Translations under genes and position numbers: made by a program | Part shown: positions 21,830 through 38,241 of the stretch, in pieces | Layout of the letters: each line of letters opens with the position of its first letter | Position numbering within the stretch: position 1 is the stretch's first letter | The notes under the pieces: model-generated | Told to the model about the DNA's origin: nothing | Databases searched by the model: none | The model's input: only the letters and a program-made list of their open reading frames with translations | Assembly: GCA_025457915.1 (NCBI GenBank) | Contig: JALOTL010000001.1 | Coordinates: 62,001-126,000, forward strand | Reading direction: 5' to 3' | From: Spirochaetota bacterium | Lineage (GTDB): Bacteria > Spirochaetota > UBA4802 > UBA5550 | DNA length: 64,000 nt

Positions 21830-23179
21830 ATGAATTATTTGTTAATAATCATTCTTACCGTCTTTCTTCTGATATTCCTGTTTTTTATTAAGTCTCTATC
21901 GCTGCCCTCTCAGATAAAAAAAGCCGAGGAATATTTCGACGCCGGGGACATTACGAAAGCCGGCGAAATAGTCAAAAAAATTCTGGACAGGAAAAAGGAT
22001 TATGTCCCCGCCTGCTATCTCAGGGCGAAAATCCTCATGAACCGGGGACAGTTCCTTCATGCCATTTCAGAGTTCAACGGGGTCCTGGCGCTTCAAAATT
22101 TTGCAAAGTACATCAACGAGCTTGAGATCCATAATTTCCTTGCGCAGCTTTACAACGATACCCAGAATTACCAGAAGGAGATCGAGGAATACAGGATCAT
22201 TCTCACATTCAACCCCGATGACCTGAACGCGAACTACAGGCTCGGCCACGCGTTATATAAAAAAAAGGAATATAAAAAAGCAAAAGAGCATCTTACGAAG
22301 GTCATTCTGCTCGATTCCGGAAAGGTCGACTGCTATACTCCGCTGGGCATATCATGTTTTAATATTTCGGACTACGAAAAAGCCGAGGAATACCTTCTCA
22401 CTGCAATGAAGCAGGAAGGGGACCATTCTGAAATAGAGTACCACCTTGGAATAATCTATAAAATGAAAAAGGACTATGATAGCGCGACTTCCATGTTTGA
22501 CAATTCAAGGAAAAGCAAGAAATACCTGACGAAAAGCCTCTTTGCCCTTGGAGAAATATTTTACGACAGGGAACAATACGATGATGCAATTTCGCTGCTT
22601 GAACAGGGACTCGGCGGTCTCAAGGAAAAAACCGAGGAATCCTATGCATACCGCTACCTTCTCGCGGAATGCTACGAGCTTGAAAACAAGATAAAGGAAG
22701 CGGTCCATCACTGGGAAAAAATATTCCTTGATAACCCGGGATTCAGGAGCACAAAAATGAAGCTGGAATCCTACAAGGACATCCTGAGCAACAGCAACCT
22801 GATGACCCTTTTCCAGTCTTCAATCGAGGAGCTTCAGCCGCTGATAGTGGAGCTCATCTCAAACCTTAATTTCAACATCATATCAAAAGAAAAAGTCAAC
22901 GCCAATGAATTCCAATACAAGGCCTACAATATCAAGAGGATAAACGATCCGCCCATACTGATTTATTTCAACAGGACCACCAGGGAAATAACCGAGGGGC
23001 AGATAATAGAATTCGATAAAAGGATGGCCGATGAAAAATGCAAAAACGGCATCTATATAACCTCTTCCAGGTTCAGCATCAGGGCAAAGTCGAGCGCCCA
23101 GTCAAAATTGATCGACATTTACGATTCTGAATACGTTAATAAAATCGTAGAAAAAATTCAGGCCAGAAAAAGAAAATAG
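21830..23179 (+). CDS. Membrane-anchored TPR protein with Mrr-like C-terminal domain
   Basis: 449 residues. An N-terminal TM (about 2-18, LLIIILTVFLLIFLFFI) is followed by about 8 tetratricopeptide-type repeats (about 28-320; for example DDLNANYRLGHALYKKKEYK). The last 115 residues (LNFNIISKEKVNANEFQYKA through YITSSRFSIRAKSSAQSKLI) have the layout of an Mrr/restriction-endonuclease-like fold, where the last part resembles the usual fVTTs-F--A---A------L-D pattern. The expected D...QxK catalytic set is not evident (YFNR stands where QxK is expected), so nuclease activity is unlikely. No restriction-modification genes are nearby. Confidence 0.72.
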   Translation: MNYLLIIILTVFLLIFLFFIKSLSLPSQIKKAEEYFDAGDITKAGEIVKKILDRKKDYVPACYLRAKILMNRGQFLHAISEFNGVLALQNFAKYINELEIHNFLAQLYNDTQNYQKEIEEYRIILTFNPDDLNANYRLGHALYKKKEYKKAKEHLTKVILLDSGKVDCYTPLGISCFNISDYEKAEEYLLTAMKQEGDHSEIEYHLGIIYKMKKDYDSATSMFDNSRKSKKYLTKSLFALGEIFYDREQYDDAISLLEQGLGGLKEKTEESYAYRYLLAECYELENKIKEAVHHWEKIFLDNPGFRSTKMKLESYKDILSNSNLMTLFQSSIEELQPLIVELISNLNFNIISKEKVNANEFQYKAYNIKRINDPPILIYFNRTTREITEGQIIEFDKRMADEKCKNGIYITSSRFSIRAKSSAQSKLIDIYDSEYVNKIVEKIQARKRK

Positions 23180-33213: not shown

Positions 33214-34009
33214 GCCCATAGGAATATTCGATTCCGGCATCGGAGGCCTTACCGTCTGCAAGGCCATACACGATATTCTTCCCTCGGAAAGCATAATTTA
33301 CTTCGGCGACACGGCAAGGTTCCCCTACGGGACAAGGTCCAGGGAGACAATTATAAGGTATTCAAAGGAAATAGCTGCATATCTCTATTCCAGAAAAGTC
33401 AAGATGATCGTCATAGCATGCAACACCTCTTCCGCCGCGGCACTGGACACCCTCCGTTCTGAATTCAGCATCCCTGTAATAGGCGTAATCGATGCGGGAG
33501 CAAGGGCCGCCTGCAACAGGCTGAAGGGGAACTCGATAGGCGTTATTGGAACGAGGGCGACCGTAAGCAGCGGCTCTTATGTCAGGGCCATTCATTCCAT
33601 CAGGCCCGGAATAAAGGTTCACCAGCAGCACGCCACGCTGTTCGTTTCACTGACCGAGGAGGGCATGACCGACAATGAAATAGCCCGTCTGGCCTCGAGG
33701 GAATATATCCAGGGACTTTACGATGAAGGCGTCAGGACGCTGATACTGGGGTGCACGCATTTCCCGATGCTCAAAATGGCGATCAGCAGCGTCTACCCGG
33801 ACATGGAGCTTATCGATACCGGGATAGAAATCGCCCTTGAAGTAAAAGACATACTCAGGGAAAAAAACCTTGAAAATAAAACAAGCGGTGACTATAAGGG
33901 GAAAATCGAACTGTATGCCTCTGACATCACCGATACCCTCCAGAGGCTCAAGGACATGTTTTTCGGGCGAAACGGGACAACGATAGAAAAGCTGATAATA
34001 AATGGATAA
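33203..34009 (+). CDS. murI: Glutamate racemase
   Basis: 268 residues. IGIFDSGIGGLTV at the N-terminus and the two catalytic cysteines in IACNTSSAAALD (about 75) and LGCTHFPML (about 185) identify the family. It makes D-glutamate for peptidoglycan. Two ATGs in tandem (33203, 33206) are equally possible. It overlaps both cimA and the following isomerase gene frame, so translation is probably coupled. Confidence 0.96.
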   Translation: MMDKPIGIFDSGIGGLTVCKAIHDILPSESIIYFGDTARFPYGTRSRETIIRYSKEIAAYLYSRKVKMIVIACNTSSAAALDTLRSEFSIPVIGVIDAGARAACNRLKGNSIGVIGTRATVSSGSYVRAIHSIRPGIKVHQQHATLFVSLTEEGMTDNEIARLASREYIQGLYDEGVRTLILGCTHFPMLKMAISSVYPDMELIDTGIEIALEVKDILREKNLENKTSGDYKGKIELYASDITDTLQRLKDMFFGRNGTTIEKLIING

Positions 34010-34013
34010 TATA

Positions 34014-35087
34014 ATGAAAAAAATACGGCGTGCCGCTCTGTCATTAATTCTCATTCTGACTCTTTCACCTGCCTATACCTGGGAGATTTATGACCAGGTA
34101 ATAGCAGTCGTCAACAGCCAGTGCATAATCGAAAGCGAAGTAAACAACAAACTGTCGTATCTTCAGAAAAGCAAAAACATACCGCAGAAAAAGATACCTT
34201 TCGAAAAAAGCAGGGTCCTTGATAAGTTCATCGAAGACGCCCTGGTGTATGAAGCCGCGTCCGATGAAGCAATCGTTATAAGCGACGCCAGGGTCGTAGA
34301 TTATATGAAAAGGATGATGAAGGATTTTTTTATCACAAAGATTAAAAATGCCGAGGAACTCGACGAAATGCTTCCAAAGCTCGCGGCAAGACTTGAAAAA
34401 ATCCGCAAGGATAAAAACATTTCAGAGGATGTAAGCCTCGATCCTTATATCCACAGGTTCATCAGCTTCATTGAATCGACGCAAAAAATCGCTTTCGATG
34501 ATTTCTTCGAGGAAATAAGAATACAGATGAGGCGGGAACAGGTCATGTCCATAGCAATCGGCGTAACGCCACCGTCCCAGGAAGAATGCAAAAAATGGTA
34601 TAAACTGAATAAAAACAAGCTGGGCTATGAAATCAACCTGAAACACATCCTCATCAGGCCGGTCAACAATTCCCTTACCAAGGAAAAGGAGGCCAACCAG
34701 AAGCTCGTTGAAATCAGGAGCAGGATAATGGCCGGGGAGCAATTCGAAAAACTCGCGGCCCTCAATTCCCATGACATGGATACAGCCCAGAAGGGCGGAG
34801 ATATGGGATGGAGCCTCATGGTCGAGCTTGACCCTTACTTCGCCGGATATGTCGACAGGATGAGAAAGCCGGGTGAAGTATCGGAAGTATTCAAATCCGG
34901 ACTCGGTTATCACGTAGTCAAGTATCTTGGAAAAAGACCGGTTACTTTCGACAAGGTTGAAAGGCTTATAATGTTCAAGCTTTACAACGAAAAGATCTTC
35001 ACCCAGTTCCAGAAATGGGTCCAGAAAAAAAAGAACGAATCCGACATACAAATATACATGAAGGACTACGTAAAAGGCGGAGCCTGA
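34014..35087 (+). CDS. SurA/PpiC-type periplasmic peptidyl-prolyl isomerase
   Basis: 357 residues from the ATG at 34014 (an in-frame ATG at 34002 is also possible and overlaps murI). Signal peptide KKIRRAALSLILILTLSPAYTW. The N-terminal SurA-like region starts IYDQVIAVVNSQCIIESEV; a parvulin domain (about 195-300) includes EINLKHILIR and DMDTAQKGGDMGW, then GLGYHVVKYL. Likely a chaperone for outer membrane proteins. It has a single parvulin domain, unlike E. coli SurA with two. Confidence 0.9.
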   Translation: MKKIRRAALSLILILTLSPAYTWEIYDQVIAVVNSQCIIESEVNNKLSYLQKSKNIPQKKIPFEKSRVLDKFIEDALVYEAASDEAIVISDARVVDYMKRMMKDFFITKIKNAEELDEMLPKLAARLEKIRKDKNISEDVSLDPYIHRFISFIESTQKIAFDDFFEEIRIQMRREQVMSIAIGVTPPSQEECKKWYKLNKNKLGYEINLKHILIRPVNNSLTKEKEANQKLVEIRSRIMAGEQFEKLAALNSHDMDTAQKGGDMGWSLMVELDPYFAGYVDRMRKPGEVSEVFKSGLGYHVVKYLGKRPVTFDKVERLIMFKLYNEKIFTQFQKWVQKKKNESDIQIYMKDYVKGGA

Positions 35088-35088
35088 T

Positions 35089-36570
35089 TTGAAAACCGAC
35101 ATCCTCCTATACGTCGACGGCGCAACAACTGACGAGTCACTGATATTCAAAACGGAATTTCTGCCCGACAAATTGACAGAATCCCTCAAAATAAACGGCA
35201 TCAATGATATTTATTTTTCAATCCCGGAAAATTATTCTGGCAGGCTTTCTGGAAGGGAAAAAACAATCCAGAGAAAACAGGACAACGAAATTGAATCCTG
35301 GAAAAGCGTTTTCTCCGCCACGGGATCCGACCATCTGGTAAAGATATTCGCGGACTCGCCCTTCACGGATCCTACCGTGATAACCGAAATGCTTGATCTT
35401 CATTTAAAATACATGTCGGAATTCACCTACTCTGAAAATCTTCCTGAAGGCGTAACATGCGAGATTTTTTCCAGGGAACTCATCGAAGCGCTCCCGGAAA
35501 TCAAGGACAGGGTTCTTCCCCTCGGGCAGGTCATCAGATCAAACATCAACCAGTTTGATGTTGAACTTTTCTATAAGGATCCGGACATAAGGGATAAAAG
35601 GATCTCCTTCAGGTCGGGGATCGCCAGGGACAGAATGATTATGGAACGCATAATCGACCGCCATGGCCGAGTACCATCTTATTCTGAAATCAAAGATATA
35701 ATCGATTCCAATCCCCAGGTGCTCTATACGGGACCGTCCTACCTGGAGTTGGAACTGACCGGGCGCTGCGATCTTGACTGCGTATTCTGCTACAGAAATA
35801 CCCTGAAAAAAGTCCATGGAGACATGGATATCGGGATGTTAAATAAAATAATCGCCGGCATGACGGATTTCGGCCTTCCCTATTCCCTGTGCCTCGGCGG
35901 CTCGGGAGAGCCGATGATGCACACAGGTTTTTACGAGGCGCTTGAATCAATACTTTCCGACACGCTTCTTAAATCCCTGTTCATAGAAACCAACGGACTT
36001 TACGCTGATTCAGGATACGCCGCGTTCATAAAGGGGAAAGCCGATCCCAGGATAAAAACAATATTCAACATGAACGCCCATGATTCAGAAACATACAGGG
36101 CCCTTCACCGAGGGGATCATTTTGAAACCGTTTACAAAAACGCCATGGGACTGTACGACGCGGTCGTAGATAAGGATACGGTATTCATCCAGATCATGAA
36201 GATTAACGAAACCGAACCATATCTCGACAAATACTACGATTTCTGGGAACCCCTCAAGATCCAGATCATTCTTCAGAAACAGAGCACCTGCCTGGGCAGG
36301 ATACCGGACAGGCGATACTCGGACCTCTCTCCCCTTGACAGGATACCATGCTGGCACCTCCAGAGAGACGCCTATATTTTATCAGACGGCAGAGTTGCGT
36401 TCTGCAAGCAGGACGTTGACTGCGTAAATCAGAAAGGCGATTTGAAAACCGAGAGCCTTAAGGAAATCTGGGACCGCAGAATTGACGACTTTATCAGCGA
36501 CTACAGAAAAAAATACCCGGCAAACCCCGATTGCATGTCTTGCGATGAATGGTACACGTTTAATTATTGA
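35089..36570 (+). CDS. Spiro-SPASM radical SAM protein
   Basis: 493 residues, TTG start 1 bp after the isomerase stop. Residues about 1-190 look like a degenerate cytidylyltransferase-like domain (LVKIFADSPFTDPTVI, then ENLPEGVTCEIFSRELIEAL), matching the pattern of the next gene. The radical SAM cluster motif CDLDCVFC lies at about residue 222, followed by LGGSGEPMMH. The C-terminal SPASM region has cysteines in IPCWHLQRD, VAFCKQDVDC and DCMSCDEW for auxiliary clusters. This fits the spirochaete-restricted spiro-SPASM family. Substrate unknown. Confidence 0.9.
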   Translation: MKTDILLYVDGATTDESLIFKTEFLPDKLTESLKINGINDIYFSIPENYSGRLSGREKTIQRKQDNEIESWKSVFSATGSDHLVKIFADSPFTDPTVITEMLDLHLKYMSEFTYSENLPEGVTCEIFSRELIEALPEIKDRVLPLGQVIRSNINQFDVELFYKDPDIRDKRISFRSGIARDRMIMERIIDRHGRVPSYSEIKDIIDSNPQVLYTGPSYLELELTGRCDLDCVFCYRNTLKKVHGDMDIGMLNKIIAGMTDFGLPYSLCLGGSGEPMMHTGFYEALESILSDTLLKSLFIETNGLYADSGYAAFIKGKADPRIKTIFNMNAHDSETYRALHRGDHFETVYKNAMGLYDAVVDKDTVFIQIMKINETEPYLDKYYDFWEPLKIQIILQKQSTCLGRIPDRRYSDLSPLDRIPCWHLQRDAYILSDGRVAFCKQDVDCVNQKGDLKTESLKEIWDRRIDDFISDYRKKYPANPDCMSCDEWYTFNY

Positions 36571-37340
36571 AGGACGCCGTGTCCCGCGACAGTAAAAACC
36601 CGAAAATCCTTGCAGTCATCCAGTCCAGGATGGGGTCATCCAGGCTTCCCGGAAAGGCCGGCGTTGAACTCGCCGGAAAATCCCTCACATGGCATGTGAT
36701 CGAAAGGGCAAAACGGGTTGACGGGATTGACCTGGTGGTTCTTGCCACTAGCACGGAAAAGATAGACGAAGCTCTCCTGGAACTGGCAAAACGATCCGGC
36801 GCAGAAGCTTTTGCGGGCCCGCTTGACGATGTCCTTGAGAGATTCGTCCTGGCCGGCAGAAAATTCGGGGGAGACTACATCATGAGGATTACCGGCGATA
36901 ACCCATTTACCGATCCCCATTACGCTTCTCTTACCCTGAGAACAGCGCTTTCCGAATCGGCGGACCTGTGTTCGCTGTCGGGCCTTCCCCTTGGCACTGC
37001 CGTGGAGGTAGTCAGCATGCGGGCCCTGGAAACAACGTATGTCGAATCCAGCATGCCCCACCAGAGGGAACACGTAACGCCCTACATCAAGGAGCATCCT
37101 GAAAAATTTAAAATCGTCAAAAATGATTCCGGATTCAGGTGCCCGATAGAAAACCTGAGACTGACGGTCGATACGGCAGAGGACTACGCTCTGGCCAGGG
37201 CGGTTTATGAAGAGTTGTACAGGGGCGCTCCCTTCCGCCTTGAAGATGCGGTCGAATTTCTTGAAAAACACCGGGAATTAGTTTCAATAAATTCACAAGT
37301 AATACAGCGCCCCATGACGCATTCCTCCGGCAATGACTAG
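36567..37340 (+). CDS. SpsF-type cytidylyltransferase family protein
   Basis: 257 residues, TTG start overlapping the spiro-SPASM stop by 4 bp. The nucleotidyltransferase signature is AVIQSRMGSSRLPGKAG (about 16-32); later come IMRITGDNPFTDPH and ENLRLTVDTAEDY. The family (SpsF/PseF/NeuA-like) makes CMP-activated sugars used in spore coat, flagellin or surface glycans. Position beside a PseG-like gene fits nonulosonic-acid-type chemistry, but the true sugar cannot be told. Confidence 0.85.
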   Translation: MKDAVSRDSKNPKILAVIQSRMGSSRLPGKAGVELAGKSLTWHVIERAKRVDGIDLVVLATSTEKIDEALLELAKRSGAEAFAGPLDDVLERFVLAGRKFGGDYIMRITGDNPFTDPHYASLTLRTALSESADLCSLSGLPLGTAVEVVSMRALETTYVESSMPHQREHVTPYIKEHPEKFKIVKNDSGFRCPIENLRLTVDTAEDYALARAVYEELYRGAPFRLEDAVEFLEKHRELVSINSQVIQRPMTHSSGND

Positions 37341-38241
37341 AAAAAAAATATCAATAATAACGGGATGGGGAGACGGCCTGGGAAACGGCCACCTTCAGAG
37401 AATGGCAAACCTGGCCTCATACCTGAACAGCCGCGGATTTCATGCATCGATAGTAAGCGAGAATCGGCCTGAATTGTTCCCCGGGGACGCGTTGCAGTTC
37501 TTTTCCGGAAAAATCCTTCCGGGAACGGACCTGATAATAAGAGACATGAGGGACTCGGAAACCGGCGAAATCGAGTCGCTGAAAAAATACGCGCCGGTTC
37601 TCGCTGTCGATGATTCCGGTCCCGGAAGAAAATCAGCGGACTTCAATCTCACCCTGCTGCCGAATCCTCCAGGAAGCGGCATGGGGCAGCCCTCTTACAA
37701 TATGTTCATTTACGGGTACAATATCACCCGCGAGATAAAAATGATGGGGAAGGAAAAAATTCATAAATCCATGGATGTTTCGTTTTATCTTCCTCACGAC
37801 ATTATTGAAAACCCGGATTCGATACTTAAAATTCTGCCTGACGGAATGAATGTTGCGATTATATCTCATAGAGGCCACGTGATATTAAAAAACGGATCAA
37901 CCATGCCTTTAAATAAAAACCATGCCGAAATCCTCCTATCGTCCAGGCTGCTTATATGCCATTTCGGCATCACCCTTTTCGAGGGTCATCTTTCAGGCTG
38001 CCGCCTTGCTACGATTAATCCCACCGGGTATCACTCGAGCCTGTCAGATGCAGTTAAACCGGAACTTGGTCTTGAAAACCTTGGTATCTATCCGGGAATT
38101 AAACCTGATTCAAAAAAAATTATTTCAGGGCTCGTCGCTTCCAGTATATCCGAATCGGCCGATCCATCAAAAATAAATGACAGGATACAGGAAAACCTTG
38201 ATAGGTTGCATGGATTTCTCTTGAATGATTGTTTAAATTGA
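37333..38241 (+). CDS. PseG/SpsG-like glycosyltransferase-fold protein
   Basis: 302 residues, overlapping the SpsF gene by 8 bp. The N-terminus SIITGWGDGLGNGHLQRMANLA carries the G-x-GH motif of PseG/SpsG (GT-B fold, nucleotide-sugar hydrolase or transferase). ADFNLTLLPNPP and the late LLICHFGITLFEGHLSGC resemble the nucleotide-binding second domain. It is the last gene of the cimA-to-pseG operon. Homologues act on UDP-linked diacetamido sugars; the substrate here is open. Confidence 0.75.
   Translation: MTRKKISIITGWGDGLGNGHLQRMANLASYLNSRGFHASIVSENRPELFPGDALQFFSGKILPGTDLIIRDMRDSETGEIESLKKYAPVLAVDDSGPGRKSADFNLTLLPNPPGSGMGQPSYNMFIYGYNITREIKMMGKEKIHKSMDVSFYLPHDIIENPDSILKILPDGMNVAIISHRGHVILKNGSTMPLNKNHAEILLSSRLLICHFGITLFEGHLSGCRLATINPTGYHSSLSDAVKPELGLENLGIYPGIKPDSKKIISGLVASSISESADPSKINDRIQENLDRLHGFLLNDCLN

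Follow-up and report, generated by a model that had tools for sequence, protein, structure and literature searches.

The described systems closest to the locus studied here are those of Campylobacter, Helicobacter and Clostridium, in which flagellin is glycosylated with pseudaminic or legionaminic acid by a pathway that includes Maf. The spirochete gene set shares with them NeuB/PseI, a PseG-like protein, a CMP-sugar synthetase, PseB/PseC-like enzymes and Maf-type (PF01973) proteins, but all spirochete PseB/PseC matches fall under the curated cut-offs and the CMP-sugar enzyme is of the SpsF type. Added in spirochetes are the spiro-SPASM protein, an ATP-grasp ligase and fusions of PseG with a methyltransferase. 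A system of the same phylum and with the target that we propose below is the FlaB glycan of Treponema denticola, which, according to work by Kurniyati et al. in 2017, is reportedly a pseudaminic-type nonulosonic acid carrying a methoxy polyhydroxy acyl group. We know of no gene assignment for these enzymes in the T. denticola FlaB glycan. This glycan has a mass of 450.2 Da and is essential for filament assembly and needed for motility (PMC9481697), and putative FlaB1 glycans have been placed between the core and sheath of Leptospira flagella (PMC13144727). The literature that we searched does not tie the genes described here to the FlaB glycan pathway, nor did we find in it any mention of spiro-SPASM; the functional placement of spiro-SPASM and the losses of its radical motif come from the present analysis.

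For spiro-SPASM itself, the closest counterpart is BtrN, a twitch radical S-adenosylmethionine (SAM) dehydrogenase of butirosin biosynthesis. BtrN likewise has a single auxiliary cluster, but it lacks a cytidylyltransferase domain and depends on its radical cluster, whereas many spiro-SPASM proteins lack the radical cluster motif. By its name, the haloarchaeal pseudo-SAM/SPASM family TIGR04347 offers a precedent for a SPASM protein without a working radical SAM site, but it is a different family that matches the protein studied here weakly. The spiro-SPASM family model TIGR04321 was likewise compared by name only, and its curators may already know of members without the motif.

Results

The window is the whole stretch of spirochete DNA that was analyzed (64,000 nucleotides). 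The three genes considered here, and the features within the first of them, are as follows.

35089..36570, + strand: spiro-SPASM protein (P0001), 493 aa, TTG start
35089..35733, + strand: pseudo-cytidylyltransferase N-terminal domain of spiro-SPASM, from profile, fold and lost SpsF catalytic residues
35767..35790, + strand: radical SAM motif codons, C227-D-L-D-C231-V-F-C234, intact in the window's spiro-SPASM
36349..36543, + strand: auxiliary-cluster region, spiro-SPASM codons 421-485, with four invariant cysteines; aligns with BtrN
36567..37340, + strand: SpsF-type cytidylyltransferase (P0002) with intact QSRMGSSRLPGK loop, probable CMP-nonulosonate synthetase
37333..38241, + strand: PseG-like GT-B-fold protein (P0003), probable nucleotide-sugar hydrolase; GxGHxxR (H20) conserved

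As the initial annotation had described, the three genes overlap, by 4 bp and then by 8 bp. P0001 scores 367 bits against TIGR04321 (curated cut-off, 250) and matches both Radical_SAM and SPASM of Pfam. Its layout comprises a dead cytidylyltransferase domain (residues ~1-215), a radical SAM barrel and a twitch-type auxiliary-cluster domain. P0002 matches CTP_transf_3 (Pfam, E 2e-27) and has a complete QxRxxSxRLPxK loop, the combination by which we recognized SpsF/CMP-sugar synthetases; its closest structure is PDB 6oew (E 9e-30), a Leptospira cytidylyltransferase, and it is probably a CMP-nonulosonate synthetase. P0003 alone matched no family in family-profile and Pfam searches, including TIGR03590 (PseG). 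A profile built from 47 of its relatives matched the PseG structure 3hbm (E 1e-7), its predicted structure (pLDDT 95) has a GT-B fold, and H20 of the GxGHxxR motif, at the position of the PseG catalytic histidine, is nearly invariant among the relatives. One PseG-methyltransferase relative matched TIGR03590 with an E value of 4e-13, under the cut-off, and a structural search with P0003 returned general GT-B enzymes, with no PseG among the best 50 matches. P0003 is probably a PseG-like nucleotide-sugar hydrolase. Elsewhere in the window, positions 21830-23179 encode a TPR protein that ends in a domain resembling restriction endonucleases (Mrr_cat / NA-iREase1).

Spiro-SPASM was detected in 303 of 393 spirochete genomes and in none of 14 control genomes. 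The linkage survey covered 84 loci, representing about 50 families, and the counts of SpsF and PseG-like genes are confined to these loci. The linkage seen in the window is conserved across the phylum, as the initial annotation had expected: SpsF or the PseG-like gene adjoins spiro-SPASM in 68 of the 84 loci (SpsF in 63, PseG-like in 63, both in 58), with neither adjoining in 16. The next gene overlaps or lies <20 bp away in 59 of 76 cases, several lineages have an SpsF-PseG fusion (loci L095 and L091 among them), and FlaA is found on the same stretch and strand as spiro-SPASM in 27 of the 84 loci. Another conserved neighbor, upstream of spiro-SPASM, encodes a SurA/PrsA-like peptidyl-prolyl isomerase (window 34002-35087); it lies near spiro-SPASM in 28 of the 84 loci.

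A Treponema-type operon holds, in order, spiro-SPASM, a gene termed c3, SpsF, PseG-methyltransferase, the ATP-grasp ligase, an amidase, a GerMN-like gene and FlaA. Two of the genomes surveyed match known treponemes in size: G056 (1,139,633 bp) matches T. pallidum Nichols, and G165 (2,843,201 bp) matches T. denticola ATCC 35405. The published T. pallidum annotation lists a SPASM protein (TPASS_0285), a methyltransferase (0289) and an FMN dehydrogenase (0291) (PMC4403809), the same gene order as in L095, which backs our reading of G056. The c3 gene, GT2-like by eye, was rejected as a core part: it also occurs in Borreliaceae and unflagellated genomes and is absent from most other genomes with spiro-SPASM. 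The c3 protein (A1 family, e.g., L088:8436-9389) has no significant Pfam match.

The N-terminal domain of spiro-SPASM resembles its neighbor SpsF. BLASTP aligned P0001 with P0002 (E 3e-7), a profile of 35 N-terminal domains matched 6oew over the whole domain (E 1.7e-8), and the domain in the predicted structure (pLDDT 94.5) superimposed on 6oew with a TM score of 0.71-0.72. Because sequence, profile and predicted fold agree, the likeness is not due to chance. We then compared the positions that at least 85% of 62 SpsF proteins share. At the nucleotide-binding loop and at most catalytic positions, 0-12% of spiro-SPASM domains retain the SpsF residue; the aspartate at SpsF position 202 is kept in 36%, and a few turn residues also persist. 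P0001 itself lacks the QxRxxSxRLPxK loop and nearly every catalytic residue of a cytidylyltransferase. Judged by these residues, the domain is a pseudo-transferase across the whole spiro-SPASM family. The degenerate transferase domain and the missing LPGK loop that the initial annotation had noted are both borne out, and the predicted fold is that of a cytidylyltransferase rather than an unrelated one.

The best solved relative of the radical SAM body is BtrN (profile E 1.4e-21), and the match includes the C-terminal cluster stretch. All 83 aligned orthologs carry cysteines C421, C439, C482 and C485 (83 of 83); the ortholog row that is gapped at these positions is a shortened open reading frame. 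This pattern, C-x17-C followed by CxxC, is that of a twitch domain with one auxiliary cluster. A full SPASM domain has seven cysteines and two clusters, and P0001 has four conserved C-terminal cysteines, despite a PF13186 score above the cut-off. This corrects the SPASM clusters of the initial annotation: the C-terminus holds one predicted twitch-type cluster, as in BtrN, not two.

The radical SAM motif behaves differently from the auxiliary cysteines. C227, C231 and C234 are intact in P0001, giving the CxxxCxxC signature expected of an active radical SAM enzyme. Judged by alignment columns, 45 of 84 orthologs carry this signature and 39 lack it; one ortholog (L077) with three cysteines in slightly different spacing was counted as motif-bearing. 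The orthologs of the T. pallidum- and T. denticola-matching genomes (G056 and G165) are among those without it. On a tree of the quick kind, built without the motif columns and counting changes rather than their direction, the motif state changes about 14 times, with 7 changes forced by well-supported branches. Three spaced cysteines are unlikely to have been gained at the right place, and we therefore read the changes as repeated losses. The SAM-binding GE(P) region is only partly decayed in motif-less orthologs, and all those tested score, like P0001, far above the TIGR04321 cut-off. A second spiro-SPASM copy does not make up for the loss, there being as a rule one match per genome (E 1e-20), and no clear pattern ties motif loss to the PseG-methyltransferase fusion. 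Because the motif is so often missing and appears to have been lost repeatedly, the conserved function of spiro-SPASM would thus not be radical chemistry. Even where the cluster is missing, the barrel fold, if intact, might still accommodate a nucleotide or another cofactor.

We then examined co-occurrence with flagellin and glycosylation genes. Flagellin was found in all 80 spiro-SPASM-positive genomes tested. Among 79 near-complete negatives, 38 had flagellin: 36 genomes of family f39, which we read as Borreliaceae with gene content among our grounds, plus G316 and G320. Families f45 and f50 hold both states, and in each the presence of flagellin and spiro-SPASM coincides. In an 80-genome panel, a strong NeuB match, Maf-type PF01973 and an ATP-grasp ortholog (E<1e-90) were each found in 46 of 46 positives and in 0 of 12 Borreliaceae, and PF01973 gave 1 weak match among 19 unflagellated genomes. 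PseB/PseC-like genes were found in 16 of 16 positives and 0 of 4 Borreliaceae. Apart from that one weak Maf match, Borreliaceae and the unflagellated lineages lack both spiro-SPASM and Maf. Strong NeuB also occurs in three unflagellated genomes (G226, G249 and G371), and NeuB, PseB-like and PseC-like genes are found in many bacteria and may serve other glycans. One unflagellated genome without spiro-SPASM has a strong relative of the ATP-grasp ligase in an apparent surface-polysaccharide cluster (L140, G386:C1:1810595-1811785). Flagellin, Maf and NeuB were found without a detected spiro-SPASM in G316 and G320 (93 and 96% complete, fragmented) and in G198 (81%); many of the sampled genomes are metagenome assemblies, and these three cases may be assembly gaps. 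The genomes are related, so the co-occurrence reflects a small number of independent events, perhaps four rather than dozens.

The window's genome encodes NeuB 6 kb from FliD, adjacent PseC- and PseB-like genes and four Maf-type proteins. Together, NeuB, the CMP-sugar synthetase, Maf and flagellin make up the gene content expected for glycosylation of flagellin with nonulosonic acid. In this genome, the ATP-grasp ligase is fused to an FMN-dependent dehydrogenase domain (L122:8496-10733, G000:C32). That domain was rejected as a core part: the fusion occurs in many genomes, but it is not universal. The T. pallidum-matching genome has a separate FMN-dehydrogenase-like gene two genes past SpsF-PseG-methyltransferase (L095:15341-16222). 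At another locus of the window's genome, the flagellin gene precedes genes for an MBOAT O-acyltransferase and an AlgX-like SGNH protein (L146:6855-10515, G000:C19). NeuB in L124 likewise has MBOAT and DUF459/SGNH genes nearby, and these arrangements suggest O-acylation of the flagellin glycan. The T. pallidum- and T. denticola-matching genomes both have, directly 3' of NeuB, a gene for a small conserved PPP-rich protein of 137 aa with a weak DnaJ-like match (L124:8232-8645 and L126:8660-9073).

Discussion

On the basis of linkage and of co-occurrence with flagellin, NeuB, Maf and the ATP-grasp ligase, we assign the three genes to a phylum-wide pathway that places nonulosonic acid on flagellin (FlaB), and we propose that spiro-SPASM docks on SpsF; we put the probability of this reading at about 0.72. 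The pathway placement, drawn from genome sequence, is well supported by both kinds of evidence. The coupling to CMP-sugar metabolism that the initial annotation had suggested holds up, given the partners NeuB, Maf and PseB/PseC-like enzymes. Its statement that no described pathway has this gene set went too far: glycosylation of flagellin with nonulosonic acid, a pathway of known kind, uses the same partners, here with additions.

In the proposed pathway, PseB-like and PseC-like enzymes would make an amino sugar nucleotide, from which the PseG-like protein would release the sugar. NeuB would condense the sugar with phosphoenolpyruvate, SpsF would activate the resulting nonulosonic acid with CTP, and Maf-type transferases would attach it to serines and threonines of FlaB. 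An unusual acyl side chain would probably come from the ATP-grasp ligase and, in many species, the methyltransferase fused to PseG. This part leans on the glycan structure reported for T. denticola, whose methoxy polyhydroxy acyl group would fit a methyltransferase and an amide-forming ligase. We infer an accessory role for spiro-SPASM, whose dead domain would serve SpsF as an inactive partner, docking on it and keeping the cluster domain there. Where CxxxCxxC is present, as in the window, spiro-SPASM probably also oxidizes or epimerizes a sugar; where it is lost, a scaffold or accessory role alone would be left.

The initial annotation had seen the point of the system in radical chemistry on an activated sugar, or on a peptide. 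Spiro-SPASM could be an essential radical SAM enzyme that performs the same reaction on an activated sugar in all species, as its closest profile relative, the aminocyclitol dehydrogenase BtrN, fold matches to the sugar enzymes DesII, BlsE and SpeY, and the intact motif in the window and 45 of 84 orthologs would suggest. We regard this as quite unlikely, and a system centered on radical chemistry is not supported, with the motif missing from 39 of 84 orthologs and about 14 changes on the tree; most genomes hold a single family member (E 1e-20), so that no close paralog takes over the radical step. That spiro-SPASM is instead a RiPP-type maturase of a small peptide encoded nearby is very improbable. 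SPASM and twitch proteins often act on peptides, and its best structural matches include the peptide modifiers SuiB and SkfB, but its partners are sugar enzymes, the radical motif is often missing, and among open reading frames of at least 80 aa in the loci inspected, no short conserved one adjoins the genes; the suggested peptide substrate is not supported.

Two further readings concern the pathway. The nonulosonic acid might decorate a surface polysaccharide or lipid rather than flagellin: the nonulosonic-acid clusters of Leptospira have been studied as a source of surface sugars (PMC3438082), and SpsF, PseG and NeuB are common to such pathways. We consider this unlikely, given that unflagellated families lack both spiro-SPASM and Maf while flagellated sister genera in the same families (f45 and f50) have them, that the T. 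pallidum-matching genome retains the set in 1.1 Mb, and that the genes are linked to flaA. An arrangement inherited by chance, with no joint function of the three genes, would be in keeping with the 16 of 84 loci that have neither neighbor, but is hardly credible when 68 of 84 loci, in a sample of about 50 families, keep the linkage and spacing is tight in 59 of 76; the conserved gene order and the SpsF-PseG fusions in several lineages refute it in the main.

Assignment of the three genes to glycosylation of FlaB provides a testable gene set for a glycan that T. denticola motility needs and that may act as sheath-core glue in Leptospira. It also proposes a function for a family of unknown role that is conserved down to the T. 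pallidum-matching genome. The family is a natural experiment on the radical SAM fold, in which the radical site has apparently been lost repeatedly and the auxiliary-cluster site never. A more specific and doubtful idea is that spiro-SPASM is doubly degenerate, with a dead transferase and a dispensable radical SAM core, and that its conserved role is to position a [4Fe-4S] cluster at the CMP-nonulosonate synthetase. If this is true, spirochete flagellar glycosylation would depend on, and may sense, iron-sulfur status.
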